From Streptomyces sp. SID3343 (GTDB lineage: Bacteria > Actinomycetota > Actinomycetes > Streptomycetales > Streptomycetaceae), in NCBI RefSeq assembly GCF_009865215.1, contig NZ_WWJX01000766.1:1-43773 (forward strand): a stretch of 43,773 nucleotides of DNA. The letters are read 5' to 3'. Made by a program: the position numbers and the translations under genes. Below are positions 13,527 through 37,027 of the stretch, piece after piece (position 1 is the first letter of the stretch; each line of letters begins with the position of its first letter). The notes beneath the pieces were generated by a model. The model was not told where the DNA came from. It worked only from the letters and a program-made list of their open reading frames with translations, and made no database searches.

Positions 13527-14570
13527 CTAGTCGATGACCTGTGTGTATTCGACGCTTATGCCGCAGTACGGGGTGCTCGCCTTGGTGCCGAACGCGCCGC
13601 CGTACGACCAACTGCCACTGTTCGAGCGGAGACGCTTGCCGGGCCCGCCGAGCACTTGCCGCCGGCCCCCCAGCCGTCACTGACGTTGCCCGTCGAACCC
13701 TCGGCTCCGGCGCCTACTCCCGGCAGGCCGATTCCCGGACTCGGGGTGATGCCGACCTTGCCGTGATGGTCCACGGAGGCGCTCAAGCCGAGGCAGACGC
13801 CGAAGCAGGCTTCCCCTCCGATCTTGAGCGACCACGTTCCGGTCGGGTCCGCCCGGTTGATCGGGTCGCCCGCCGCGTAGGCGTACCCGTTGGCCTCGCG
13901 GCCTGCGGGGTCGGACTGAGTGAAGCGGCCCACCGTGGGGTCGTAAGCGGGCTCCGGTGGTGTCGAGGTAGGTGCTCGTGTAGCGGAGTGGGTTGGGAAC
14001 TGCCTCGGTGGTGGTGCGGGCGTTGCCGTACGGGTCGTACGTGTAGGTGTTGACCTTGTTGCCGAGCTTGTCCGTCATCGCGATGACGGAGCCCTGGGCA
14101 TCGGTGAGGTAGTAGTAGTAGTGGGCTTCGCCGGCGCTCATGGCTGTGAGGCTGCCCGAGGGTTCGCGGACGAATCCGGTCTCGACACCGTTGTCCACGG
14201 TGGCGGTCAGGCCGAGGGGGGCCGGCGTAGAACGTCGTGGCACCGGAGGTCAGGCGTTCACCGTTGGTGGTGCCGGCGTAGGTGTTGTTCGTGGTGGTGG
14301 ATCCGCGGGTGAGGGCGGTGAGTTGGTCGAAGTCGCCGTACGTCTCGCCGGTGCGGGGCAGGCCGCCGCCGGCGGCGGTCTCGTTGCCGTTCGCGTCGAA
14401 GGTCCAGCCGCTGGTCGACGTCTGGTTCGCGGCGTTGTAGGTGTAGGTCGTGCCCGCGGAGCCGCACGCGGTGGTCGTGGTGGAGGTGGCGGTGAGGTTC
14501 CCGGCCTTGTCGTAGTAGTAGAGCCACGCGGCGAGTTGGGTGTTCGCGAACGAGACACCGAAACACACGA
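13527..14570 (-). pseudogene. RHS/YD-repeat protein, 3' part, frameshifted
   Basis: YD repeats appear in order: YYYDKAGNLTATST, TYTYNAANQTS, WTFDANGNETAAGG and FDQLTALTRG. The RHS-associated core follows (HYYYYLTDAQGSVIAMTDKL, NTYTYDPYGNART, GRFTQSDPAGREANGYAYAA, GDPINRADPTG). A C-terminal tip of about 105 residues ends SYGGAFGTKASTPYCG...VID at a TAG at 13527. Single-base frame breaks lie near 14225 (C6 run), 13945 and 13625. The start and most YD repeats are missing; the 5' boundary is near 14570. RHS proteins form secreted shells that carry a variable toxin tip. I do not recognise the tip here as a known toxin. Confidence 0.85.
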
Positions 14571-14849
14571 TGCGCCACATGAGGAAAAACCACGCATCCC
14601 TCATGCTTCGCCGGTACCCGGCAAAGCCTGGCGAAGGGTGTGGACTCTTGGCTGGTTGTTTCCTGTTTCCCGGTTCCTGTGCTGCATTCGTCTATTCGGG
14701 TGATGCAGGCGACCCGCCGGCGCGCATGCTCGCCGAGTACGGCGGTCGAGTGTTTCGGACGGCCGGCCGACGTGTCCGGGATGCGAAGCCTGATTCGGAA
14801 AGGGTTCACGAAGACGGTGAAGATCGAAAAAATGGAGGTGTTGGAATTC
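14571..14849. other. Junction between RHS remnant and biosynthetic cluster
   Basis: GC is noticeably lower here than to the left. The stretch probably holds the methyltransferase promoter. The methyltransferase frame is open from 14640, but the first 60 codons do not look like protein. Confidence 0.4.
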
Positions 14850-15578
14850 GTGTCGAACTGCGAGAGCATGTACTCCGGAAGTGTTGGCCACGATCCGAGG
14901 AGCGTTTGCGTGACGGACTGGAATCAGTTGCTGACCGACGAGCAGTTCATCGCCCGCCATCCCGAGGGAAACTTCTACCGTTTCCTCGGAAAAGTCGAGG
15001 ACCTTCATTCCGTTCGACCGCTGCGCGCGTGGGACCTGTGCTGTGGGGCCGGACGCCACACTGTTGCCATGGCCCACCGGGGGTGGGAGGTGTATGCCTC
15101 CGACGGCGCAGAGACAGGCATAGAGGAAACCGTGCGATGGTCGACCTCGGAGGGCTTGGAGAAAAGGGTTCGAACCGCGGTCGCGGACATGGTGGAATGT
15201 CCCTGGCCGAACATCGATTTCCATGCCGTCGTTTCGTGGGATGCCATCCATCACAACACGGTGGACAAGACGCGCAGGACAGTGGAGAACGTTCTGGCTC
15301 ATCTGGTACCAGGCGGCCTGTTCCTCGGCTCCGTCGCCGGTGACAAAGCTTGGAAGAACGGCCACGGCGAGGAGATCGAGCCTGGGACATTCATTGCCGA
15401 CGTGGGTGCGGACATCGGTGCGACACATCACTTCTACACTCTCGCCGAAGTCGAGGCATTGCTCGAAGGTTTCGAGATCGCAGTCGTCGGCGAATATATG
15501 CGTTACGCGAAGGACGATCGGCAGCTAAACCCGTTCGGGTCCACGACGTGGCGATTCGTCGCCCGCCGGCCGGTGTGA
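14850..15578 (+). CDS. Class I SAM-dependent methyltransferase of the cluster
   Basis: Transfers a methyl group from S-adenosylmethionine; acceptor unknown. I place the start at GTG 14850 because GGAGGTG lies 9-10 nt upstream; ATGs at 14781, 14832 and 14868 are alternatives. The protein is about 242 aa. SAM motif I is WDLCCGAGRHTVAMA, motif II around VYASDGAETG, and motif IV VVSWDAIHHN (a D/N acid-polar loop). It ends in STTWRFVARRP. The gene converges on the MFS gene and their 3' ends overlap by 54 nt. It probably tailors the cluster product, for example by N- or O-methylation. Codon third positions are less GC-rich than in neighbouring regions. Confidence 0.88.
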   Translation: MSNCESMYSGSVGHDPRSVCVTDWNQLLTDEQFIARHPEGNFYRFLGKVEDLHSVRPLRAWDLCCGAGRHTVAMAHRGWEVYASDGAETGIEETVRWSTSEGLEKRVRTAVADMVECPWPNIDFHAVVSWDAIHHNTVDKTRRTVENVLAHLVPGGLFLGSVAGDKAWKNGHGEEIEPGTFIADVGADIGATHHFYTLAEVEALLEGFEIAVVGEYMRYAKDDRQLNPFGSTTWRFVARRPV

Positions 15579-16799
15579 TTCCTCGCCGCGCTCGTAAAGT
15601 GGCGATCTGAGCAGGTGTGCGAACGCGATCGCCAGGCACAGCAGAAAGGCACCGGACCACAGAATGGTGGGTCCGGCGCTCTGGAAAACGAGCTGGCCGA
15701 TCGGGGCCCCGACGACCAATCCGAGATTCCACGAAAACGAGTAGGCACCCTGATAGGACGCTGTCCGTCCGGCGGGCGCGTGATCCGCGATGAAAGCGGA
15801 AGCCATGGGTACTTGCAGAATCTCCCCGAGAGTCCATACGGACACGCACAGCAGGTACCCGGGCGTGCTTGCCACAAGGATGTTGAGCCCGAATCCGACA
15901 CCGACGAGTCCGGCGGCGGCAACGAACGATCGATGTCGAAGACGACGGGCCACCGGTCCCGAGAGCGGCTGCAGCACGACTACCAGTACTCCGCTGAAAG
16001 CCAGCACCAGGCCGATGCGACCGGGTGAGAGCCCGTTGTGCCGCATGTCCAACGGAAGCGCCCCCTGCTTTTGCATGTAGACGCAGGACAGCAGGAACGA
16101 GAGCAGGACGAAACCGCCCACCGTTCGCGACGAGAACGGCTCGAGGAGATCCCGAACGGCTCCGCGGACACCGCGGCGTTCGTCTCGTCGCACCGGCGCG
16201 ATCTCGGGCAGCGCCAGGGACAGGGCGGCGTAGACCGCGGCGCCGACGGCCGTCAGAGCGAACAACGAGGCCGGAACCGCCTGCAGCAGGAGCCCCGCCA
16301 GGAGGGGTGCGAACGACGCACCGATGTTGTGCGCCCAGTAGAGCAAGCCGTACGCGCGTGTCCGTTGCGGCGGCGCCACGAGTGCCACGACCAGGGCGGA
16401 CGACGCCGGCCGATGGATCGCCGAGAGAACACCGATGAGGAACACGAGCCCCACGACCAGTTGGAGGTCGCGGCTCACCACGAGGGCGAGGGCCGTCGCG
16501 AGCGCGAGTAGTTGCGAGGCCATGATGGTCCGTCGCGGGCCGATCCGGTCGGCGAGCACGCCACCGATCAGTGCGGCGCTCACCGAACCCGCGCCGTACA
16601 CGCTCAGGGTGAGGGCGACCGCGGAACCGGTGGCCAAGCGCTGGTCCGTGAGGTAGAGCGCGAGAAACGCGGGCGCCAGCAGCCCGAGCCGATTGACCAC
16701 CGTTCCGGCCCACAAAACCCAGAACCGACCGGGCAATCGCCTCGGTTGGCTCTCCGTCGCGCTGGGGCCGTCCACAGGGGTCTCACCGTTCTTGTCCAA
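15525..16799 (-). CDS. MFS efflux transporter of the cluster
   Basis: A 424-aa, 12-helix major facilitator protein, likely a proton-driven exporter giving self-resistance or product release. The TTG start at 16799 has GGAG 7 nt upstream. The loop 2-3 signature is GGVLADRIGPRRTIM. Helix 1 starts near residue 27 (WVLWAGTVVNRLGLL), and a long basic central loop (about 200-225) separates the halves. It is the last gene of the minus-strand operon, 60 nt after the ATP-grasp gene, and its 3' end overlaps the convergent methyltransferase. The substrate is presumably the small peptide made by the cluster. Confidence 0.9.
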   Translation of the reverse strand: MDKNGETPVDGPSATESQPRRLPGRFWVLWAGTVVNRLGLLAPAFLALYLTDQRLATGSAVALTLSVYGAGSVSAALIGGVLADRIGPRRTIMASQLLALATALALVVSRDLQLVVGLVFLIGVLSAIHRPASSALVVALVAPPQRTRAYGLLYWAHNIGASFAPLLAGLLLQAVPASLFALTAVGAAVYAALSLALPEIAPVRRDERRGVRGAVRDLLEPFSSRTVGGFVLLSFLLSCVYMQKQGALPLDMRHNGLSPGRIGLVLAFSGVLVVVLQPLSGPVARRLRHRSFVAAAGLVGVGFGLNILVASTPGYLLCVSVWTLGEILQVPMASAFIADHAPAGRTASYQGAYSFSWNLGLVVGAPIGQLVFQSAGPTILWSGAFLLCLAIAFAHLLRSPLYERGEESHRPAGDESPRRGPERV

Positions 16800-16859
16800 G
16801 TCCCGTCTCCAAGTCCCTTCTCGAACCGGTCGGCGTCACGGGTGACCTGCCGTTGCGTG

Positions 16860-18119
16860 TTACTCCGCCCATCGCGGCGTGAGTGTGCGTGCGGCCTGAT
16901 CCAGGCGCGCGTCGACCTCGGCCGCGCTGTGGGAACAGGCGATGACCGCCGCCAACACGCATCCTGTGTAGTCCCGTGGTGGCAGGAGCACGTTGTCGCC
17001 GAGCGAGCGTTCCACCGTCACGTGCTCGACGCCGGGCACCGCGAGGGCTCGCTCGATTCCCCTGAATCCCCCGAATCTGCCCTCGTGTTCGGCAATGATC
17101 TTGACGACACCCGCGAACATCGACGGAGCGCCGATCCCTGTCGCGGGCGTCAGTGGGCGACTGCCGACGGACAGTCGGAGCACGTTCTCGTAGAAGGGCT
17201 CCTTCGTCGCGAGCGGCACCAGGTGTGACGTGATGTAGTCGCCGCCGACCCGTGCCGCCACCTCGATGAGGCGGATACGGTCACGGTCGACCTTGCACTC
17301 CAGGTGGAATGCGCAGTTGTCGAGGCCGCAGACGCGGATGACCTCACTCACCAGTGCCCGCACTCGGTATTGCTCCCTCGAACCGAGTGAGGTGGGGAAG
17401 ACGTGTCGGATCTCCAGGTGGAACGGTGGCGATGTGGTCTTGTCCGTGATGCCGACGACGATCACCCGGCCGTCGTGGACGTACCCCTCGACGCTGTGTT
17501 CCGAGCCCTCGAGGTACTCCTCGTAGATGAGTTCGCCCGGGGCACTCGCGAATACCGGATGAACAGCGCTTTGGGCGTAGGCCGAAAGGGTTCGGTGGGC
17601 GTGTTCGAGCTCCTGCTCGGAGCACACCTGGAAGACCCCCATGCTGCCCATGGAGACGGTCGGTTTGAGCACGGCCGGGTATCCGATGTCCGCCGCCGCC
17701 GCCGCTGCCTCGCGCCACGTGCGTACGAGCGCGAAGCGTGGGAGCAGGGACGATCTGTCCCGCAGGGACTCACGCATCAGGTATTTGTTGCGGGTGATGG
17801 CGGCTGCCGGTAACGGGGTTCCGGGCAGCCCGAGTCGGTCGGCAAGGGCTGCCGCCGGGACCACGTCACGATCCCGCCAGGGGACGACTCCCACGATGTC
17901 GTGGCGATGTGCCAGCTCGCCTCCCGTCTTCAGGACGGCTGCCACGTCGTAGGTGTCGGTGATCGACACTTCGCGCACCAGTCCACGAGGCAGGTCGTCG
18001 GGTGGTCGATCGGTGATCAGGAGCACCTCGTATCCCAGTCGGGATGCCGCGCGCAGTGTGGGCAGGTAGGCCAGTTGATGCGTTCTCAGGTTGAAGAAGG
18101 CGATGCAAGGAGATGTCAT
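16860..18119 (-). CDS. ATP-grasp amino acid/peptide ligase 1
   Basis: A 419-aa ATP-grasp enzyme of the carnosine synthase/L-amino-acid-ligase type. It would activate a carboxylate as acyl phosphate and join it to an amine. ATP-binding Lys is in VLKPTVS (K152), the Gly/Ser-rich loop at 155-163 (TVSMGSMGV), an adenine-binding acidic patch in YEEY (200-201), and Mg-binding Glu in FHLECK (E274) and LIEVAAR (E286, then R290). The ATG at 18119 follows GGAGAGG at ideal spacing and starts 18 nt after the glutamate mutase E stop. Together with the second ligase it could build a di- or tripeptide. A role as phosphoribosylglycinamide-type or D-Ala ligase is less likely from context. Confidence 0.88.
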   Translation of the reverse strand: MTSPCIAFFNLRTHQLAYLPTLRAASRLGYEVLLITDRPPDDLPRGLVREVSITDTYDVAAVLKTGGELAHRHDIVGVVPWRDRDVVPAAALADRLGLPGTPLPAAAITRNKYLMRESLRDRSSLLPRFALVRTWREAAAAAADIGYPAVLKPTVSMGSMGVFQVCSEQELEHAHRTLSAYAQSAVHPVFASAPGELIYEEYLEGSEHSVEGYVHDGRVIVVGITDKTTSPPFHLEIRHVFPTSLGSREQYRVRALVSEVIRVCGLDNCAFHLECKVDRDRIRLIEVAARVGGDYITSHLVPLATKEPFYENVLRLSVGSRPLTPATGIGAPSMFAGVVKIIAEHEGRFGGFRGIERALAVPGVEHVTVERSLGDNVLLPPRDYTGCVLAAVIACSHSAAEVDARLDQAARTLTPRWAE

Positions 18120-18137
18120 ATATTCCTCTCCGGGTGA

Positions 18138-19502
18138 TCAGCGGCGCCCGACGGTGATGGAGGGATCGCCGGGGCCGGCGAAGAAGTTGATGTCCCTCGT
18201 GAGTTGCTCGATCAAGTCCGGTCGAGGGCCGGGGCCGGACGCTTCCAGCAGGGACTGGTTGCGTCGTGAGGTTGCCGTGGAGAAGGGGAGGTTGCTCGAC
18301 GTCAGGTAGCGGATCGCGCCCGTCGGGTCCCGCATCGGAATGATGTCCGAGCGGGCCAGCCTGCTCGCGCTGAACGGGATGTCCAGGCGCCCGTCGGCGA
18401 ACGCCTGGGGAATCTCCGCACGCGGATCGCCGCATGCGAGGATCGGCTCGACCAACTCTGCGACCTCGCGCTCGATCCAGTCGGCCTCCTCGGACACCTG
18501 GTCCTCGTTGACGGTGACGAAATCGAGCAGGGATGTGGCGGCAAGCCCGGTCGTGGCCAAGCCCTCGAGATTCGCGTGTGTATCGGGGATCCCGAAGGCT
18601 TCCTGGTGGGTCTTGGTGAGCACTTTGGTGGCGCGGCCCAGTCGTGCGACCAGCGCTCCATAGAAAATGAGGGCGTCCGCGCGGGGGCGTTCCGCGGGAA
18701 ACGGGCCCATGTACTGGTGCAGGACCGGGTAGACGTGGGCATCGCCGGGCAGATACCGACGGGCCAGCCGCGGAATGCATCGCAACGTGGCCACGTCCTG
18801 GATGACCTCGCCGCCTTGCGGATACGCGATGGACAGACACCGTACGCCTTCTCGCGCCGCCAGCCACGCTTCCAGGACACTGATCGCCAGGCTCGTGGAA
18901 GGTGGGATCAGCACGGCCGTGAGGGTGCCGAAGAACTCGCGGTCGACGACGATGCCCTGTCGGGCGAGGTCGCCGCACACGGCGTCGACGTCGCGCCAGA
19001 CGGCCAGTGACTCGCTCAGGGGGAAGTTCTTGGCATACGGCAGGTTGTAGCAGATACCGCCCCCTTCGAACGCCGTGATGCCGCTGGCGATGGTCACTTC
19101 GAAGAGTGCCCAGGGATGGGGTGAGCCGTGCCGGATCTGGATCGGGGCCTGGGTGGCCTCGTTGAGTTCGCGTCCTCGCTGCCAGCCGTGTGCCACCAAC
19201 GGGTACCCGTTCAGGTCCTGCGGGTTCGCCTTCACGCAGCGCGATGCCTGCGCGAAGCGACGCATCCGGGTGTGCGCGTCGATGGTCAGCGTCTGAATGT
19301 CGGGGCGCGCGCCTTCCTCCAAGTCCTGAAGCAGCCTCAACTGGGCCGCCTGGCTTCCCACCCCGCACCGCGCCTGTACCGCCACACGACCGTCACGATG
19401 CGCCGCGCGCAGTACGTCGGCAACGCTCGGCTTGTTCAGCGAGCGTATGTAACCCACGCTGTCCGCGAGATCGGGTACGGCTGACGGAAAGCGGGCACTC
19501 AC
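18138..19502 (-). CDS. Glutamate mutase E (epsilon) subunit
   Basis: The catalytic TIM-barrel subunit of adenosylcobalamin-dependent glutamate mutase, which interconverts L-glutamate and (2S,3S)-3-methylaspartate. It has 454 aa (clostridial enzyme about 483). Counting by eye, the substrate-binding Arg trio of the clostridial enzyme (R66, R100, R149) maps to R45 (VQARCGV), R79 (TIDAHTRMR) and R124 (IQIRHGS). E171, Y177 and Y181 map to E146, Y152 and Y156 in [15 protein letters not shown]. The offsets are constant. The GTG start at 19502 overlaps the S-subunit stop (GTGA), matching the two-subunit enzyme. In actinomycetes this pair usually serves natural-product pathways. Confidence 0.95.
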
Positions 19503-19966
19503 GATGCCCTGGTCGACGAGAGCTGCGACGCGGAGGACCGCAACCTGTCGAGGGTGCCCGGTAGTTCGGCCGCGTCCTCCAACACGACGTCGACCCCCAG
19601 CGTGAACAGGCGCTCCAGGTCGCGGGGCGACTTGTGGCTGCCGACCGAGAGGTTCCCGCCGAGAATCACGGGGCAGGTGATCAGGCCCGCCGCGCGTATC
19701 GCCGGCAACTCGCGCAGATCCTCGTGGGCGTGCCCGTTCAGACTTCCGATGATCACGGCCTCGGCGTCCGGGTGTTCCGCGCACGCCTCGACGAACTCGG
19801 CGACCGACGTATTGACCCCCAGATTCACCACGTGGTAACCGCGGTCTCGCAGCGTGCGCGCGATGAGGTGGTTGGCCACCGCGTGGGCGTCGCTTGCCGC
19901 GACCCCCAGGATGACGGTGCGCAACGCGGTGGTTCGACTACCGTTGGTGCTTGGGCCAGTCCTCAC
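19499..19966 (-). CDS. Glutamate mutase S (sigma) subunit, B12-binding
   Basis: A 155-aa cobalamin-binding Rossmann-like subunit. The GTG start at 19966 has GAGGAG 7 nt upstream. The histidine that ligates cobalt and its Asp partner are present (ASDAHAVA: D26, H28), followed by YHVVNLGVN, the GSLNG loop (74-78) and LGGNLSVG (G103-G104). Two positions differ from the usual DxHxxG...SxL...GG pattern: the motif Gly is Ala31, and the first Ser of SxL aligns with Gly74. The rest is normal, so I expect function. The gene follows the second ATP-grasp ligase after 49 nt and is coupled to the E subunit. Confidence 0.92.
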   Translation of the reverse strand: MRTGPSTNGSRTTALRTVILGVAASDAHAVANHLIARTLRDRGYHVVNLGVNTSVAEFVEACAEHPDAEAVIIGSLNGHAHEDLRELPAIRAAGLITCPVILGGNLSVGSHKSPRDLERLFTLGVDVVLEDAAELPGTLDRLRSSASQLSSTRAS

Positions 19967-20015
19967 GACAACTCTCCTCGGTTTCGTATGTGGGGCGTCG
20001 TTCGTCGTCGCATGG

Positions 20016-21284
20016 TCACGCGACGACGAACATCCGGTCGCATATTCGGCGTACCTCGGCGAGATCCTGATCCAAGGTGGGCCGGTCGGGCGCCTGCATT
20101 TCGATCCGCAACATCGATCGGGCACCGTCCTGACGCGGCGTCACCACGTCACCCGTCTGCTTGCGAACCACGACCCGGTCGACGCTTTCGAGGCGCTCCA
20201 GTGCGTCGAGCCCGCGCAGGTCGATCAAGGTCCCGCTGGTGCTCGGGTACGGAGTGACCACCGCCGACGCGTTGTGCGTGATGGTTCGCAGGGCGCACGG
20301 TCGGGCGCCTCGCAGGGTTTGCGCCCAGCTCCGCATCAGGTCGATCCCGAATGCCCGGCGCAACAGGATCGGCCGATTGGCGCCCGGTCGTCCGGCGACC
20401 TCGATCAAGCGCGGGCCCTGTGGTGTGTGGATGAACTCGACGTGCGCGACACCGACGGTGATTCCCAGAGCTCGTAGTGCCTGGCAGGCAAGCTCTCGCA
20501 TCCGCGTCTGTGTCGCCTCGTCCAGGCTGGACGGCGTGATCCGGGCGAAGTGGTGGAAATCCGTGCCGCCCATGTCGGCCCCGGTCACCACGTCCACGAC
20601 CGGGGTGGTGGAGATCGTCCCGTCGTGCGCGAGGCAGTCGACGGAGTGGTTCGTGCCGGGCATGAACTCTTCGACCAGGATCTCGGCGGCCACGTCGGTG
20701 ATGTCGTGCTCTCGGGCGAAGCCGGGCAGTTGTGTGGCGAGGTGCTCGTAGGCGTCGCACAGTCGCGCCGGATCGGCGCACAGCGTGACGAAGTAGCTGC
20801 CGTACAGATTGCCGGGTTTGAGTACCACGGGGTAGCCGATCCGAGCAGCGGTATCGAGCGCTTCTGCCCGGTCGCGTACGGCACCGGTTCGGCAGGTGGT
20901 GTGAGCGCCGATCCGCGCAAGAAACAGCTCGCGCATACGGGACTTGCTGCGCACGTTGTACGCGGCTTCCGGCGACAGGGCGGGCAGGCCGAGACGTCGT
21001 CCCACCTCGGCGCACAGTCGGACGGTGGCTTCGTCGATGTTGATCAGTGCGAGGCGGTGGGTTCGGCCGAGGTCGCGCACCCGATCGCAGACCGCCTCGG
21101 GACCGTCCGAGAAGCTCAGTTCGGCCGGCACCGTAACGCCCTGCGGTATCTCGGAGTTCAGGGGGCTGTCGGTATTGCGCAACAATCCGACCGTGAGTCC
21201 GGCTTCCAGGAGCGGGGCGTAGAACTCCGTGCGCTGTACCGTTCCGAAGAAGAGGTACAGCTCGGGATTCATCTCATCGGACAT
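20016..21284 (-). CDS. ATP-grasp amino acid/peptide ligase 2
   Basis: A 422-aa ATP-grasp ligase, only distantly similar to ligase 1. ATP-binding Lys is in VVLKPGNLYGSYF (K156, loop 157-165), the acidic hinge in LVEEFMPG (E205-E206), and metal-binding residues in HVEF (E283), LIEVAGRPGAN (E295, N303). The start is MSDEM at 21284, overlapping the aminotransferase stop by 11 nt. MNPELYLFFG at 21272, which begins 2 nt beyond that stop, is an equally good choice. It probably forms an amide bond between amino acids made in this operon. Which ligase acts first cannot be told from sequence. Confidence 0.87.
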   Translation of the reverse strand: MSDEMNPELYLFFGTVQRTEFYAPLLEAGLTVGLLRNTDSPLNSEIPQGVTVPAELSFSDGPEAVCDRVRDLGRTHRLALINIDEATVRLCAEVGRRLGLPALSPEAAYNVRSKSRMRELFLARIGAHTTCRTGAVRDRAEALDTAARIGYPVVLKPGNLYGSYFVTLCADPARLCDAYEHLATQLPGFAREHDITDVAAEILVEEFMPGTNHSVDCLAHDGTISTTPVVDVVTGADMGGTDFHHFARITPSSLDEATQTRMRELACQALRALGITVGVAHVEFIHTPQGPRLIEVAGRPGANRPILLRRAFGIDLMRSWAQTLRGARPCALRTITHNASAVVTPYPSTSGTLIDLRGLDALERLESVDRVVVRKQTGDVVTPRQDGARSMLRIEMQAPDRPTLDQDLAEVRRICDRMFVVA

Positions 21285-22470
21285 CGGCGAAGAATCCCTC
21301 CAGACGGTCCAGGCCGAGCAGGATGTCCTTCTCGTCGATGGCGTACGACAGGCGGAAGAACCCGTCGAGGCCGAAGGCGCTTCCCGGCACGACGGCGACC
21401 GCGGCGTGCTCCAGGAGCATGTCCGCCAGCACGTCGGCGTCCGTGATGCGTCGCCCCTGATGGCTGCGGCCCAACGCATCCCGGCAGTCGACGAAGAAGT
21501 AGAACGCACCGTCCGGGAACCGGAATCGCAGGTGGGGAATCCGCCCCAATCGATCGGCCACCAAGGACCGGCTTCGTGCCAGCGTCACCAGGACGTCCGC
21601 TCGGAAGGCGTCCTCCGCGCCGGCCGCCGCCGACACCAGACCGTGCTGGACGACACTCGAAGCGTGCGAAGTCGTGTGACTTTGCATCTTCTTCATGGCG
21701 TCCACCACTGCCGGCGCCGCGTGCACGTACCCGATCCTCCAGCCCGTCACGGCGAAGCTCTTGGAAAACGAGTTCACCGTCACCAGGCGTTCCTGGACGT
21801 GGGGTGCGACCGACAGAAGGGACACGTGCCGAGCCGGCGGGTGGACCAGCGAGCTGTAGCACTCGTCGCTCACGAGCCACACGTCTCGTTCCGCTGCCCA
21901 GTCGGCTATCTCGCGCAAGTCCTCGGCTGGATACACCGCACCGGTGGGGTTGTTGGGAGTGTTGACGAGGATCGCCTTGGTACGGTCCGTCGCGTGCCGC
22001 TCCAGTAGCTCGCGGGTGAGCCGGAAGTCGTTCTCCGTCGTGTCGACGGCGACCGGGCGTCCTCCCGCCAGGAGTACCTGGCTGACCAGGCTGCCCCAGT
22101 AGGGCGCCGGGACCAAGACTTCGTCCCCCTGTTCGACCACCGCCAGTACGGTCAAGTACAGGCCGTACTTGGCGCCGTTGGTCACCACGATCCGGTCCGA
22201 ATCGACGAGCGTTCCGGTCTCGACACTCATCCGTGCGGCAATGGCGTCGCGCAGAGCCGGGATTCCCGCAGTGTCCGTGTATCGGTTCGTGGCGTGTGAG
22301 AGGGCTTCGGAAGTCGCGGCCAAGACCCCGGTCGGCGGTAACGAGGCGAGCTCACCGGCCGCGAAGTTCACCACGTTTCTGCCTTGGGCGGACAGCAGAC
22401 GGGCTTTGTTTCTGGCACCCGATGTCCTGGATCCCGCCACCGATGCCACCCGAGCGGCGAGTTTCGTCAC
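21274..22470 (-). CDS. Class I PLP-dependent aminotransferase of the cluster
   Basis: A 398-aa fold-type I aminotransferase of the aspartate aminotransferase group. PLP-binding Lys is K237 in SFSKSFAVTGWRIGY. Other cofactor contacts are NTPNNPTG (170-177) and SDECY (D202, Y205). The carboxylate-binding Arg near the C-terminus is in FFRLSYA. The GTG start at 22470 overlaps the stop of the PEP mutase-like gene (GTGA), so the two are translationally coupled. This suggests that it aminates the 2-oxo acid made by that enzyme, or supplies the matching oxo acid by working on 3-methylaspartate. Both readings are inference. Confidence 0.92.
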   Translation of the reverse strand: MTKLAARVASVAGSRTSGARNKARLLSAQGRNVVNFAAGELASLPPTGVLAATSEALSHATNRYTDTAGIPALRDAIAARMSVETGTLVDSDRIVVTNGAKYGLYLTVLAVVEQGDEVLVPAPYWGSLVSQVLLAGGRPVAVDTTENDFRLTRELLERHATDRTKAILVNTPNNPTGAVYPAEDLREIADWAAERDVWLVSDECYSSLVHPPARHVSLLSVAPHVQERLVTVNSFSKSFAVTGWRIGYVHAAPAVVDAMKKMQSHTTSHASSVVQHGLVSAAAGAEDAFRADVLVTLARSRSLVADRLGRIPHLRFRFPDGAFYFFVDCRDALGRSHQGRRITDADVLADMLLEHAAVAVVPGSAFGLDGFFRLSYAIDEKDILLGLDRLEGFFADVR

Positions 22471-23357
22471 GACGTCAACAGCTCCTCCGCCGCACCCCTG
22501 AGGTACAAGGCCTCGTCGCGCCGTAGCTCCTTCACTCCCACCAGATCGAAGACATGCTCGAGTGAGACCATGCGGTCGCGGAGAATGCTCGAACGCCCGT
22601 CGGCCCGCAGAAGTCGGAGATTTTCCTCGATGGCCTTGATCGACGAGCGCATGGCTTGATTGGCGAAGATCACGATGCGGTAGCCGAGCTCGTGTAATTC
22701 CTGGGCGCTCACCCGATCGTAGGTCGTCGGAACTGCGACCAAGGGAACGGCGGAGTCCCATTTCTCGGCAAAGGTGACCAGTTCGTCGGACACAGGCTGC
22801 TTCGAGTGCACCAGTACGGCGTCGGCCCCTGCCTCGGCATAGGCGTAGGCGCGGTCGAGCGCTTCCTGAATACCGTTCCCGGCGATGAGCGCCTCGGTGC
22901 GGGCGATGACGAAGAAGTCCGGATCCGTCTGGGCTTCCTTGCATGCCCTGATCTTGAGTGCGTGCTCGCGCAGGGGCACGAGGTTTCGTTGCACTCCTTC
23001 GTAGAAGCTGCATTTCTTCGGGAATTCGTTGTCCTCGATGCAGATGCCGGCGATGCCATGGCGCTCGAACATGCGCGTTGTCACCGCAGCATTGATCGCA
23101 TTGCCGAAACCGTTGTCGCAGTCCGCGATGATCGGGATATCCACCGCTTGGGCGATGATGTCGCACTGCCTGAGTTGGTCGGTCATCGTGAGGATGTTGG
23201 CGTCCGGCACACCGAACGAGGCCGCAATCTCGAAGCCGCTGCCCCAGATGGCATCGAACCCGGCGTTTTGTCCGAGACGCGCGGTCATCCCGTCATGAGC
23301 CCCGATCGCGGTGAGGTTCGACCGCTCGGCAAGTAATGCAAGGATCCCGTGATGCAT
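22467..23357 (-). CDS. PEP mutase/isocitrate lyase superfamily enzyme with hybrid active site
   Basis: A 296-aa TIM-barrel protein closest in wording to PEP mutase and phosphonopyruvate hydrolase (WGSGFEIAASFGVPDAN and DPDFFVIARTEALIAG). With a constant offset of 6 to mussel PEP mutase, D52, D79, D81, E108, K114, R153 and H184 match D58, D85, D87, E114, K120, R159 and H190. The hallmark loop EDKxxPKxNS reads EDNEFPKKCSF here: Lys116 is Asn110 and catalytic-loop Asn122 is Cys116. Cys at that position is the catalytic residue of isocitrate and methylisocitrate lyases (K-R/K-C-G-H). It may form or break a C-C or P-C bond; which one is open. First gene of the operon; the ribosome-binding site is weak. 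Confidence 0.9.
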   Translation of the reverse strand: MHHGILALLAERSNLTAIGAHDGMTARLGQNAGFDAIWGSGFEIAASFGVPDANILTMTDQLRQCDIIAQAVDIPIIADCDNGFGNAINAAVTTRMFERHGIAGICIEDNEFPKKCSFYEGVQRNLVPLREHALKIRACKEAQTDPDFFVIARTEALIAGNGIQEALDRAYAYAEAGADAVLVHSKQPVSDELVTFAEKWDSAVPLVAVPTTYDRVSAQELHELGYRIVIFANQAMRSSIKAIEENLRLLRADGRSSILRDRMVSLEHVFDLVGVKELRRDEALYLRGAAEELLTS

Positions 23358-23865: not shown

Positions 23866-24697
23866 TGAGCACCGCGATGGCGTGGGAGGCCGTGGTCCGT
23901 CGCCGGCGGCGATGCCTCGGAACTGCCCGAGCACCTACGCCGGTCACTGACCCGAGTCCGTGCAACGGACCGGCCCGACACGCCAACTGCGTTTTACGAC
24001 AAGGATGTTGGTCTGCTACGTCGACCCACACGGCCCGTGGCAACGTGGCGGGACGGAAACACCGACGGATTGCCGCGTGCGGTGTGTGGGGTTGGTCGGT
24101 TCGGGGGCAGGGGTGAGATGAGGGTTCGGGTCCGGTCGGGGATCAGGGGAAACGTCGGTGAAGACGGCTCGGTAGGAAAAGGGGCGAGGACGGCGTCGGT
24201 GGTGTGTTCGAGGGTGAAGGGCTGTCCGCCACGAGCCCGTTCGCGTCCGAGGATGGCTTCCAGTCGGTTCCGGCGTTCTCCCCGGCATGCGGCGGGGGTG
24301 GACCGTGGTGGCGTCCACCTGGTCGGGGGTCGCGGTCTCGTTGTTCTCGAAAATTTCGAGAATGGGGATTCCTTTCGGTCGGGACATGTCCTCGCGGGGG
24401 CAGGCTGTTCGCCGGCCGATTGAACCCGCCTGTTCACGGTGGCGGAGCATCTACGCCGCGGCTGTTTCGTCGACGAGCGCGGGTGAGCGGCATGCCCGGT
24501 CGCGGGCGCGACGTTCGTGTGGCGCTGAAGAGGCAGCGAGAACCGAGGAGGCGGCCACGCGGGTCGACCTCCTGCGGGACTCTTGCGACTGGGTAAAGCC
24601 TCTTCGGTCGAGACGGTGCGCGACAACGGCTTTCGGGCACGACCGAAAGTCCCTGGCCACCGGCTGCGGTGGCGAATCAACGGATATTAGGGGACAT

Positions 24698-25711
24698 ATG
24701 TTACGTATCCATTTCACTGCCCGGGATCTGGCGGGGGTGGCGTTCGCTCACCACACCGCGCTTCCGATCAGCGAGGCGGTGATGAGTCTGCAAGTCCTGC
24801 GCCAAAGCTCCGTCCCGCTGTTTCGGGCGTGGCGGCGTTACGTCCTGGAACGGTTGCCCCCGCACGCGTCGTTGCTCGGCTCGTTGGTCCCGGCTGCGGG
24901 CTGGGTACCGGACTTCCTCACTCCCAGCGCGCCGGCGTTCCCCGGCGCGGGAGCCTTCGAGGCGATACGAGCCACACCACGCGAACGCCTCACGACCGAT
25001 GTGCGCCGCCTGTCGGCGCATCGCCGCCCGGCGGCGTGGGTACGCCAACTGGCAGACGGGGACAAAGAAGCCCTGGACGTCGTGGCCGACACCCTGGCCG
25101 CTTACAACGACGTCGCCATAACGCCGTTCGCCGACCCCATGCGGGCCGTACTGGACGCCGACCGGGCCTGGCGTGTCGAGACCATGGCACGCGCCGGGGT
25201 TGGCGCCGTGCTCGCCGGACTGCACCCGCAGGTGCATTGGCACGAACCAGTCCTGGAACTCCCCGCCCTACCCGGACAAGGCGACATCGACTTCCACCTG
25301 GAGGGTCGCGGACTCCTCCTGTGCGGGCACGTCTTCTGCGGCCTACGCCCTCGGGCGCTGCTCAACGACGTCGACACCCCCGTGCTGATCTACCCACCAC
25401 TGCGCGACCTCTCGGCGAACGGCCTCGTCTCCGAACCGCCCCGCCCCCGGGAGAACGCACCCAAGGCCCTGACAACGCTACTGGGCCGCACCCGCGCAGC
25501 CGTACTGCACGCCCTCGCGGGCCCGGGCGGCCACACCACCACACAACTGGCCCGACACCTTGGCATCTCCCCCGCATCCGCCTCCGAACACGCCGCAGCC
25601 CTTCGCGCCGCCGGCCTGATCGTCAGCCTTCGCCAGGCCAACACCGTTCTGCACACCGCCACCGCCCTGGGCACCACTCTCCTCGCGACCACACACCACT
25701 CCCCCGCATGA
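24698..25711 (+). CDS. ArsR-type winged-helix transcriptional regulator
   Basis: A 337-aa protein from ATG 24698, with AGGGG about 6 nt upstream. The long N-terminal part (about 1-245) is the DUF5937-like domain common in streptomycete ArsR-type regulators; it begins with MLRIHFTARDLAGVAFA and may bind a ligand. The C-terminal part (about 258-325) is a winged helix-turn-helix with recognition segment TTQLARHLGISPASASEHAA. No Cys-rich metal site is visible. It is divergent from and distant to the biosynthetic operon (1.3 kb), so a regulatory link is possible but unsupported. Remnants of IS elements follow it. Confidence 0.85.
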   Translation: MLRIHFTARDLAGVAFAHHTALPISEAVMSLQVLRQSSVPLFRAWRRYVLERLPPHASLLGSLVPAAGWVPDFLTPSAPAFPGAGAFEAIRATPRERLTTDVRRLSAHRRPAAWVRQLADGDKEALDVVADTLAAYNDVAITPFADPMRAVLDADRAWRVETMARAGVGAVLAGLHPQVHWHEPVLELPALPGQGDIDFHLEGRGLLLCGHVFCGLRPRALLNDVDTPVLIYPPLRDLSANGLVSEPPRPRENAPKALTTLLGRTRAAVLHALAGPGGHTTTQLARHLGISPASASEHAAALRAAGLIVSLRQANTVLHTATALGTTLLATTHHSPA

Positions 25712-36475: not shown

Positions 36476-37027
36476 ATGACGACCGCCATCGCCGATCCGA
36501 TCACCGTCAAGCTGAACGCGCTGTTCTCCGTCACCGACACCGACACGGACGGCTACGTGGACTGGGCCGACTACCAGCGGATCGTCGACCGCTACCTCAC
36601 CGCTTACAAGATCGATCGGAACGACCGGCGGGCCCGCTCGCTGACCACCGCCCACCAGATGTACTGGATGGAACTGCTGCGTCACGCGAACGGCCCCGAC
36701 CAGCTGAACAGGGAGCAGTACCAGCACGCGAACCGGGCGGCGAGCGTCGACACCAGCCGCTTCAACATGGTCGAGGGCCTCGCCCACGCCATCTTCGACG
36801 TCATGGACACCGACGACGACAACACGATCAGCAGGTCCGAGTTCAAGCGGTTCCTGGACGTGTGGGGCATCGACGCCCCGGACGCGATGGACACGTTCGC
36901 GCGGCTGGACACCGACGGCGACGGGGTCATCAGCCGCCACGAGTACATCCGCGCGATCCGGGAGTTCTTCTACTCCCCCGACCTCGACGCGCCGGGCAGC
37001 CTGTTCTTCGGTCGCCTCGGCAGGTGA
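36476..37027 (+). CDS. EF-hand calcium-binding protein (calerythrin-like)
   Basis: A 183-aa soluble four-EF-hand protein of the calerythrin/sarcoplasmic type. Canonical Ca-binding loops are DTDTDGYVDWAD (21-32), DTDDDNTISRSE (111-122) and DTDGDGVISRHE (145-156). A degenerate second site (HANGPDQLNREQ, about 70-81) lacks the first Asp. The ATG at 36476 follows AAAGGGG. It is alone, with a strong hairpin 6 nt after the stop. Streptomycete homologues are thought to buffer calcium; a specific target is unknown. Confidence 0.95.
   Translation: MTTAIADPITVKLNALFSVTDTDTDGYVDWADYQRIVDRYLTAYKIDRNDRRARSLTTAHQMYWMELLRHANGPDQLNREQYQHANRAASVDTSRFNMVEGLAHAIFDVMDTDDDNTISRSEFKRFLDVWGIDAPDAMDTFARLDTDGDGVISRHEYIRAIREFFYSPDLDAPGSLFFGRLGR

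Follow-up and report, generated by a model that had tools for sequence, protein, structure and literature searches.

Glutamate mutase serves at least two kinds of actinomycete pathway, those of vicenistatin-type macrolactams and friulimicin-type lipopeptides, where it supplies 3-methylaspartate to the natural product. Both use adenylation enzymes with a PKS or NRPS. A different logic underlies the phosphonoalanine tripeptides, which are made by a PEP mutase (PepM), an aminotransferase and two ATP-grasp ligases. In a Streptomyces cluster the four genes pnaABCD alone suffice for phosphonoalamide production (PMC11867202). As described in the available part of that paper, the cluster also holds a transporter, its transaminase belongs to the aspartate-aminotransferase superfamily, and the peptides consist of proteinogenic residues behind an N-terminal phosphonoalanine; no glutamate mutase appears there. 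The motif EDKX5NS is given as defining PEP mutase in the parts available of four studies (PMC12723261, PMC6697681, PMC8931226, PMC9426474).

The locus described here combines elements of both. It lies in a stretch of 43,773 nucleotides (positions 1 to 43,773 of contig NZ_WWJX01000766.1, Streptomyces sp. SID3343), the whole of which we call the window. The Pna-type set of PepM, aspartate-aminotransferase-like transaminase and two ATP-grasps is present with a transporter, a likeness drawn by gene family from the available description of pnaABCD rather than from PnaA-D sequences or the PepM motif, which is atypical in the window. Unlike the Pna cluster, the locus also encodes glutamate mutase, and unlike the vicenistatin and friulimicin types it has no adenylation enzyme, PKS or NRPS among its eight genes by Pfam. 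The initial annotation had read PEP-mutase-like enzyme, aminotransferase and ATP-grasp as the logic of phosphonoalanine peptides. The related operons below and the available part of PMC11867202 back this, and its pathway logic was largely right. It had also known of no characterised cluster with such a gene set, and an exact-term literature search likewise found none described. The same search found no paper pairing glutamate mutase with PEP mutase or ATP-grasp, and relative to that literature the pairing of the two mutases appears to be new.

Gene content and layout

Seven minus-strand genes run from PepM to the MFS transporter (Table 1), with junctions of -4, -11, +49, -4, +18 and +60 bp. 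Because these junctions are so tight, the seven genes very likely form a single predicted operon. The set is not a chance one, since the PepM-aminotransferase-ATP-grasp order recurs in Planctomycetota and in a methylococcal bin. All eight proteins score above the curated Pfam cut-off. The genes and families are thus as first annotated, as are the MFS gene, the overlapping or near-abutting junctions (-11 to +60 bp) and the methyltransferase converging at the operon end, which overlaps the MFS gene by 54 bp. The suggestion of a methylated product is unsupported: the methyltransferase gene is convergent, and tblastn against the stretches with related operons gave it no match. The identity of the host is uncertain, as the assembly carries a contamination rating of 6.69% and one accessory gene of the contig went unmatched at 1e-80 in three genomes of the same genus.

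Table 1. Genes of the locus, with positions in the window
Product	Position	Strand	Matches and proposed role
PepM-like enzyme, 296 aa, EDNEFPKKCS	22467..23357	-	PF13714 189 bits; TIGR02320 272.6 bits
Aspartate-aminotransferase-like PLP enzyme, 398 aa	21274..22470	-	Aminotran_1_2 232 bits; proposed phosphonopyruvate transaminase
ATP-grasp ligase 1, 422 aa	20016..21284	-	ATP-grasp_4 58 bits; proposed substrate phosphonoalanine
GlmS, B12-binding subunit of glutamate mutase, 155 aa	19499..19966	-	PF02310 (B12-binding) 45 bits; PDB 1be1/1i9c
GlmE, catalytic subunit of glutamate mutase, 454 aa	18138..19502	-	PF06368 (Met_asp_mut_E) 374 bits; PDB 6h9e/1cb7
ATP-grasp ligase 2, 419 aa, L-amino acid ligase C-terminal domain	16860..18119	-	PF13535 (ATP-grasp_4) 90 bits, PF18603 (LAL_C2) 37 bits; PDB 3vot/BacD; proposed to act on 3-methylaspartate or dipeptide
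MFS transporter, 424 aa	15525..16799	-	PF07690 (MFS_1) 145 bits; proposed exporter
SAM methyltransferase	14832..15578	+	PF13649 (Methyltransf_25) 53 bits; convergent with operon, putative member

An altered PEP mutase motif

The most informative feature of the locus, absent from the initial annotation, is a break of the defining PEP mutase motif. The PepM-like protein of the window reads EDN-X5-CS instead of EDKX5NS. Its score against TIGR02320, a curated equivalog model, also falls below the cut-off of 319.55 bits, as does that of a Sorangium relative adjoining a phosphonopyruvate decarboxylase (285.7 bits). Fold and residues, in contrast, are those of a PEP mutase. The AlphaFold model (mean pLDDT 93.3) has PEP mutase 5unc as its closest PDB fold (TM 0.93/0.96), and in the fold search the protein is 45% identical to 5unc vs 27-31% to lyases. 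We take the mussel PEP mutase active site, in numbering and roles, to be W44, D58, D85, D87, E114, K120, S123, R159 and H190. The window protein keeps W38, D52, D79, D81, E108, K114, S117, R153 and H184, and the exceptions are N110 (mussel K116) and C116 (mussel N122). Within the EDN-X5-CS class D81 is conserved at 90% or more and the other listed residues at more than 97%. A set of 101 EDN rows, of which 95 come from pattern loci, five are second copies and one is the window protein, was compared with 23 EDKX5NS rows. Only columns 110 (K/N), 116 (N/C) and 124 (Q/R) separated the two classes; H21, W38, D52, D79, E108, D109, K114, S117, R153 and H184 are common to both. The context also fits, in that the adjacent aminotransferase, of the operon lineage described below, could consume phosphonopyruvate. 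It is the only visible partner for this compound, since no phosphonopyruvate decarboxylase above cut-off was found in the window's genome.

Cysteine at position 116 has another possible meaning. C-C lyases of the PEP mutase/isocitrate lyase superfamily have a catalytic cysteine at the corresponding place, and the window enzyme carries it in PKKC, as does 4iqd (PKKCGH). The protein could then be a cysteine-using C-C lyase or synthase, acting for example on a keto acid from 3-methylaspartate, with a peptide free of phosphorus as the product; the score below the PEP mutase cut-off would agree. However, the cysteine is followed by Ser, the PEP mutase residue, rather than by Gly-His, and identity is higher to 5unc than to the lyases.

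We therefore looked at relatives. A pattern with Phe-Pro-Lys and Cys fixed and K or N permitted at the third place, scanned against 84,980 species genomes, matched 110 loci, of which 101 are PepM-like. All 101 are EDN-X5-CS. The motif columns thus co-vary, with Asn at the Lys place in 101/101 Cys enzymes though the pattern permitted Lys, and because the two columns change together (Lys to Asn with Asn to Cys) they pose a clean enzymology question. In a PepM tree of 95/101 pattern loci (matches under 240 aa were dropped) and five second copies (L168, L169, L170, L172 and L173), EDK forms one clade, and EDN needs three changes and may not be a single clade.

Neighbour content was read by targeted tblastn, clustering without a gene model being swamped by shadow frames. 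PpdA lies near 49/101 PepM-like loci, PpdB near 45/101 and AEP transaminase near 25/101; a phosphonopyruvate decarboxylase (PpdA/PpdB) or AEP transaminase is found at 51/101. Examples of these neighbours were confirmed by family models, with the decarboxylase subunits tested falling below curated cut-offs and matching sulfopyruvate decarboxylase almost equally. The PepM-like protein shares a single open frame with a nucleotidyltransferase at 77/101 loci, and at 72 of the 86 having more than 800 bp downstream. PpdA, PpdB, AEP transaminase and aminotransferase were all unseen in the available stretch of 44/101 loci, 20 of which have more than 2 kb downstream; since loci are at most 8 kb long, a missing Ppd is often a missing flank. 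Among controls, PpdA occurs in 11/19 canonical PepM loci, a rate not comparable with that of the EDN-X5-CS class because these controls had only 1.5-kb flanks, and in 0/22 GlmE neighbourhoods and 0/9 non-PepM pattern matches.

These decarboxylase and AEP transaminase neighbours, with the nucleotidyltransferase fusions, make EDN-X5-CS look like a second PEP mutase class. They reversed our initial lyase idea, which came from the cysteine alone. The 50/101 class loci where neither decarboxylase nor AEP transaminase is seen would suit a lyase, but the other 51 would not, nor would operons with the same PepM, aminotransferase and ATP-grasp genes and no glutamate mutase match. We consider the lyase reading unlikely. 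The full proposal is that EDN-X5-CS marks genuine PEP mutases of a second class, one scattered widely and dropped by EDKX5NS-filtered surveys, with a member here joined to glutamate mutase for a 3-methylaspartate phosphonopeptide; judged from sequence, we put its chances at about even. In the open-licence literature we found no assay of any EDN-X5-CS enzyme in print. If the proposal is true, the EDKX5NS test is too narrow for phosphonate genome mining, and many organisms gain phosphonate genes dropped by the motif filter; hosts among the 80 of 110 loci listed are Planctomycetota, Binatia, Nitrospirota, Acidobacteria, Rokubacteria, Sorangium and others. One study that filtered by EDKX5NS offered, in its available part, pepM-independent phosphonate synthesis as one of two hypotheses (PMC9426474).

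Ancestry of the two gene modules

Trees indicate that the window PepM, aminotransferase and ATP-grasp 1 have common ancestry with PepM operons elsewhere. Among 60 chosen PepM rows (36 EDN, 23 EDK and hydrolase 2dua), the window protein falls in one clade with the PepMs of planctomycete and methylococcal PepM-aminotransferase-ATP-grasp operons (support 100/99). The aminotransferase joins four from the operons, to the exclusion of 16 others, with support of 92/92, short of the threshold of 95 that the program itself sets; 20 of the loci fetched entered this tree, without the short pieces L195, L199, L202 and L205. ATP-grasp 1 groups with four ATP-grasps of PepM operons (100/99) in a tree that took in 10 of the neighbourhood proteins, limited to 350-470 aa with fused and short ones left out.

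These operons (L122/L168, L096/L169, L119/L170, L121/L172 and L079) resemble the window in an EDN-X5-CS PepM followed by an aminotransferase of the window lineage and, where the contig continues, an ATP-grasp of the ATP-grasp 1 lineage. L079 stops inside the aminotransferase. The order is PepM-AT-ATP-grasp-MFS-GGT in L168 and L169 and PepM-AT-GGT-ATP-grasp-MFS in L170, where the gamma-glutamyltransferase sits between aminotransferase and ATP-grasp. L168-L170 differ from the window in this gamma-glutamyltransferase and in an MFS protein without detectable similarity to that of the window, which has no tblastn match in the planctomycete operon stretches. No ATP-grasp was found in the operons beyond the ATP-grasp 1 match, and GlmE and GlmS have no match in L168-L170 or L172.

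The second module has other relatives. GlmS and GlmE are adjacent, as expected of glutamate mutase, and GlmE is identical at all eight positions that we presume to be catalytic (R66, R100, R149, E171, Y177, Y181, K326 and E330), which upholds the glutamate mutase first annotated. GlmE far exceeds its PF06368 cut-off (26.6). Other curated models fall short: 336 bits against a cut-off of 390 for TIGR01503, 82 against 136 for TIGR01501, and 98 against 110 for NF002612, methylaspartate mutase subunit S, the best match of the B12-binding protein. The B12 motif of GlmS is D-A-H-A-V-A (DxHxxA) rather than DxHxxG, and its relatives in L034, L039, L047 and L050 also have Ala at the Gly place. Both ligases have the ATP-grasp core of L-amino acid ligases (PF13535 above cut-off), and ATP-grasp 2 alone passes the LAL_C2 cut-off. 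It groups (100/100) with an ATP-grasp, 47% identical, of a GlmS-GlmE neighbourhood in the same bacterial family (L050 of G187), which differs from the window in also holding a desaturase-like protein, an FAD protein and more ATP-grasps. PepM has no match in the 22 GlmE neighbourhoods opened (20 of the 27 matches other than that of the window, plus two on plasmids), and the closest GlmE (72%, G018) has neither an ATP-grasp nor a PepM match within 10 kb.

Proposed pathway and distribution

The two modules are probably joined, yielding a small exported peptide that holds phosphonoalanine and 3-methylaspartate. We infer the following steps. In module A the EDN-X5-CS PEP mutase would convert PEP to phosphonopyruvate. 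The aspartate-aminotransferase-like enzyme would transaminate this to L-phosphonoalanine, drawing the uphill mutase step forward, and ATP-grasp 1 would activate phosphonoalanine or add to it. In module B, GlmS-GlmE with coenzyme B12 would turn L-glutamate into 3-methylaspartate, and ATP-grasp 2 may then join this either with a further amino acid or with the phosphono unit. The simplest product would be a di- or tripeptide containing both units, exported by the MFS protein. If true, this is a concrete cluster of ~8 kb for a new kind of phosphonopeptide.

The operon might instead yield two independent peptides, one with phosphonoalanine and one with 3-methylaspartate. Each module is found elsewhere without the other and has its own ATP-grasp lineage, but the tight junctions, one transporter and one operon make this as unlikely as a lyase. 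Less likely still is a phosphonoalamide-like cluster in which 3-methylaspartate is a minor or alternative block of loose ligases. PnaC has a wide range of amino acid substrates and PnaB can use several dipeptides, according to the available part of PMC11867202; yet a dedicated B12 mutase in the operon would be costly for a minor block, and the ATP-grasp 2 lineage is found beside glutamate mutase in one neighbourhood. A PEP mutase-like reaction with arsenic in place of phosphorus, recalling the arsonopyruvate proposed for actinomycete bisenarsan, is hardly credible and was rejected, as that proposal, in the part of the paper available, uses EPSP synthase and phosphoglycerate mutase homologues, not a PepM homologue (PMC12159101), and by Pfam neither family is among the eight window genes.

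The joined set was not found in a second genome. No near DNA match was seen on plasmids; the two plasmid PepM matches opened, of Priestia and Arthrobacter, with no glutamate mutase annotated, accompany phosphonopyruvate decarboxylase or thiamine-pyrophosphate genes. The window's EDN-X5-CS motif is absent elsewhere in 391 order and 396 phylum genomes (each set including the window's own), and at 1e-84 PepM matched only the window's own among 394 class genomes. Within the family, PepM matches at 1e-60 occur in 33/297 genomes, one of them the window's own, and the 19 read of the other 32 all carry EDKX5NS.

A compact, very likely operon and its proposed product

The cluster comprises seven minus-strand genes; a methyltransferase gene, at most a putative member, converges on the MFS end of the operon, overlapping it by 54 bp. 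This layout, with overlapping or near-abutting genes, had been read in the initial annotation and is borne out by the coordinates, the gaps and the Pfam/NCBIfam families. Reading downward from 23357, the intergenic gaps are -4, -11, +49, -4, +18 and +60 bp. GC content is 65.6% in 14832-23357 versus 69.4% in the remainder of the 43.8-kb contig. The host assembly carries a contamination rating of 6.69%, and one gene elsewhere on the contig had no near match in the same-genus genomes searched.

Genes of the cluster in the window, with the convergent methyltransferase
Gene	Coordinates	Strand	Family evidence
PepM-like	22467-23357	-	Pfam, NCBIfam
Class I/II aminotransferase	21274-22470	-	Pfam, NCBIfam
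ATP-grasp (ATP-grasp 1)	20016-21284	-	Pfam, NCBIfam
GlmS	19499-19966	-	Pfam, NCBIfam
GlmE	18138-19502	-	Pfam, NCBIfam
ATP-grasp (ATP-grasp 2)	16860-18119	-	Pfam, NCBIfam
MFS	15525-16799	-	Pfam, NCBIfam
Methyltransferase	14832-15578	+	Pfam

The contig also holds a transposase gene with a DDE_3 domain (PF13358; 364-1680), which we take to be of IS630 type, a fragment with YD/RHS-like repeats judged by eye and no Pfam match (13783-14604), an ArsR-type regulator divergent from the operon (25001-25711; start uncertain, frame opening at 24287) and a protein bearing EF-hand pairs (36476-37027).

We infer every reaction of the proposed pathway. In the most likely scheme, the PepM-like enzyme would convert PEP to phosphonopyruvate, which the aminotransferase would turn into phosphonoalanine; no phosphonopyruvate decarboxylase above the cut-off was found in the window's genome. 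GlmES would convert glutamate to 3-methylaspartate, the two ATP-grasps would form peptide bonds and the MFS protein would export the product. The phosphono half has a precedent in the Streptomyces phosphonoalamides, for which the available text of PMC11867202 describes it as fully shown in vitro: PnaD and PnaA yield phosphonoalanine, PnaC makes dipeptides and PnaB couples phosphonoalanine to them. On that model, as far as this text sets it out, the PnaB-like role would fall to ATP-grasp 1, and a dipeptide containing 3-methylaspartate would be the product of ATP-grasp 2. We file the cluster with the phosphonoalanine-peptide clusters; what is new in it is the B12-mutase module and a PEP mutase of an alternative class. 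In the open-licence literature, exact terms never paired glutamate mutase with PEP mutase or ATP-grasp, and none of the four papers combining methylaspartate, phosphonate and biosynthetic gene cluster concerned such a cluster by title or abstract start.

A variant class of PEP mutase-like proteins

EDKX5NS is the field's recognition motif for PEP mutase in the accessible parts of PMC12723261, PMC6697681, PMC8931226 and PMC9426474. The window protein reads EDNEFPKKCS, replacing Lys with Asn and Asn with Cys, and its PEP mutase equivalog score is 272.6 bits, below the cut-off of 319.55. The Cys site corresponds to Asn122 of mussel PEP mutase. A PepM match also occurs in 32 further genomes of the family; 19 of these matches were read, and every one keeps EDKX5NS. 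A profile search found three further proteins above the PF13714 cut-off in the window's genome, none reaching 1e-60 against the window protein. Taken alone, the variant motif and sub-cut-off score would mean that it is no PEP mutase; on motif, score and relatives by themselves it is perhaps a lyase using a catalytic Cys. The AlphaFold model (mean pLDDT 93.3) best matches 5unc (TM 0.93/0.96), with the hydrolase 2dua so close behind (0.88/0.92) that the fold does not separate mutase from hydrolase or lyase. Two tests, motif and curated score, go against the putative PEP mutase assignment; its basis is context, residues and fold.

One scan of 84,980 species genomes with the DNA-level pattern ED[NK]-x-FPK-x-C[ST] returned 110 loci, and at 101 of them the product is a PepM-like protein sharing 39-61% identity with that of the window. 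All 101 carry Asn, though the pattern also permitted Lys. The other nine were chance matches, not PepM-like. Complete isolate genomes among the 80 loci listed of the 110 are two Sorangium and one Minicystis; most listed titles are metagenome bins. The motif was absent from all others of the 391 order and 396 phylum genomes searched. Aligned with 23 EDKX5NS proteins, the classes separate at just three columns, 110 (K/N), 116 (N/C) and 124 (Q/R, ~90% in each class), and share the other active-site residues. With these columns masked, EDKX5NS forms a single clade (support 95 in the first PepM tree, 100/99 in the second); monophyly of EDN-X5-CS is not supported. Four loci from actinobacterial bins (L063, L075, L078, L110; 39-43% identity) form a deeper EDN-X5-CS branch with DGNAGGGN in place of DCDNGFGN, and phosphonopyruvate decarboxylase adjoins here too.

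Neighbours were counted in stretches of up to 8 kb. Phosphonopyruvate decarboxylase alpha and beta subunits occur in 49 and 45 of the 101 loci and AEP transaminase in 25, with at least one of the three in 51. Decarboxylase subunits, AEP transaminase and aminotransferase are all missing from 44, 20 of them despite >2 kb downstream. The alpha subunit occurs in 11/19 canonical PepM loci (flanks of 1.5 kb), 0/22 GlmE neighbourhoods and 0/9 non-PepM pattern matches. The Sorangium L104 subunits score 143 and 174 bits for TIGR03297 versus 133 and 157 for sulfopyruvate decarboxylase (NCBIfam), all four below curated cut-offs; PhnW-AepZ is the top NCBIfam match of the transaminases at L142 and L161 (305 and 315 bits; cut-off 361). 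PepM and a nucleotidyltransferase share one open frame in 77/101 loci (72 of the 86 with >800 bp downstream). The available text of PMC6697681 gives such fusions for ~60% of EDKX5NS enzymes and reports 22 fused proteins discarded for lacking the motif. Some of these probably belonged to the EDN-X5-CS class. Together with the controls, this decarboxylase, transaminase and nucleotidyltransferase context says that EDN-X5-CS enzymes are predicted phosphonopyruvate makers. No assay of one appeared among the matches listed in the open-licence literature. A squalene-hopene-cyclase-like match (~320 aa) occurs in 12/101 loci (including L117, L086, L061, L071 and L143), in most directly downstream of the fusion.

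Two probable gene histories

The nearest PepMs to the window's (59-61% identity) lie in planctomycete and methylococcal operons, L121, L122, L079 and L096, in which an aminotransferase gene comes after PepM and then, if the contig extends further, an ATP-grasp gene. Gene order is PepM-AT-ATP-grasp-MFS-gamma-glutamyltransferase in L168 and L169 (long stretches of L122 and L096) and PepM-AT-gamma-glutamyltransferase-ATP-grasp-MFS in L170 (of L119). No GlmE or GlmS match was found in these three long stretches. The methylococcal aminotransferase is split in two pieces in its contig, one with an internal stop. The window PepM forms one clade with the four (100/99), and ATP-grasp 1 groups with four operon ATP-grasps (100/99). 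In its own tree, the window aminotransferase joins those of four operons and is separated from 16 others of the same and related genomes (92/92, below the program's 95 mark). By these groupings, the three adjoining window genes have a history in common with a PepM operon showing no glutamate mutase. The L119/L170 PepM is divergent (42%) and outside the clade; its aminotransferase and ATP-grasp do group. The planctomycete gamma-glutamyltransferase genes (L168 8904-10640, L170 13897-15630) hint at gamma-glutamyl phosphonopeptides or extracellular product release.

GlmE retains eight of eight checked positions, which we take to be catalytic in the Clostridium cochlearium enzyme. The GlmS B12 motif is DAHAVA, with Ala for the final Gly of DxHxxG, as in the relatives compared. 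At 1e-60, GlmE matched in 27/297 family genomes, the window's own counted. Among 22 GlmE neighbourhoods, 20 of them in these genomes and two on plasmids, ten had an ATP-grasp match near GlmE and none a PepM match. ATP-grasp 2 pairs with the ATP-grasp of one such neighbourhood, in family genome G187 (47% identity, 100/100). On a Rhodococcus plasmid, a further relative (39.6%) belongs to a cluster that also encodes lysine 2,3-aminomutase and monooxygenases.

The 22 neighbourhoods (L034-L055) may represent a group of 3-methylaspartate clusters related to one another. Seventeen have a fatty-acid-desaturase-like membrane protein near GlmS-GlmE (PF00487 on one example), often with a PLP decarboxylase-like or quinone oxidoreductase-like protein (named by eye) or ATP-grasps. 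A recurrent cluster in L039 and L047 holds, by eye, an acyl-CoA dehydrogenase, transglutaminase-like and TrpB-like proteins, two ATP-grasps, GlmS-GlmE, an AMP ligase and a carrier protein.
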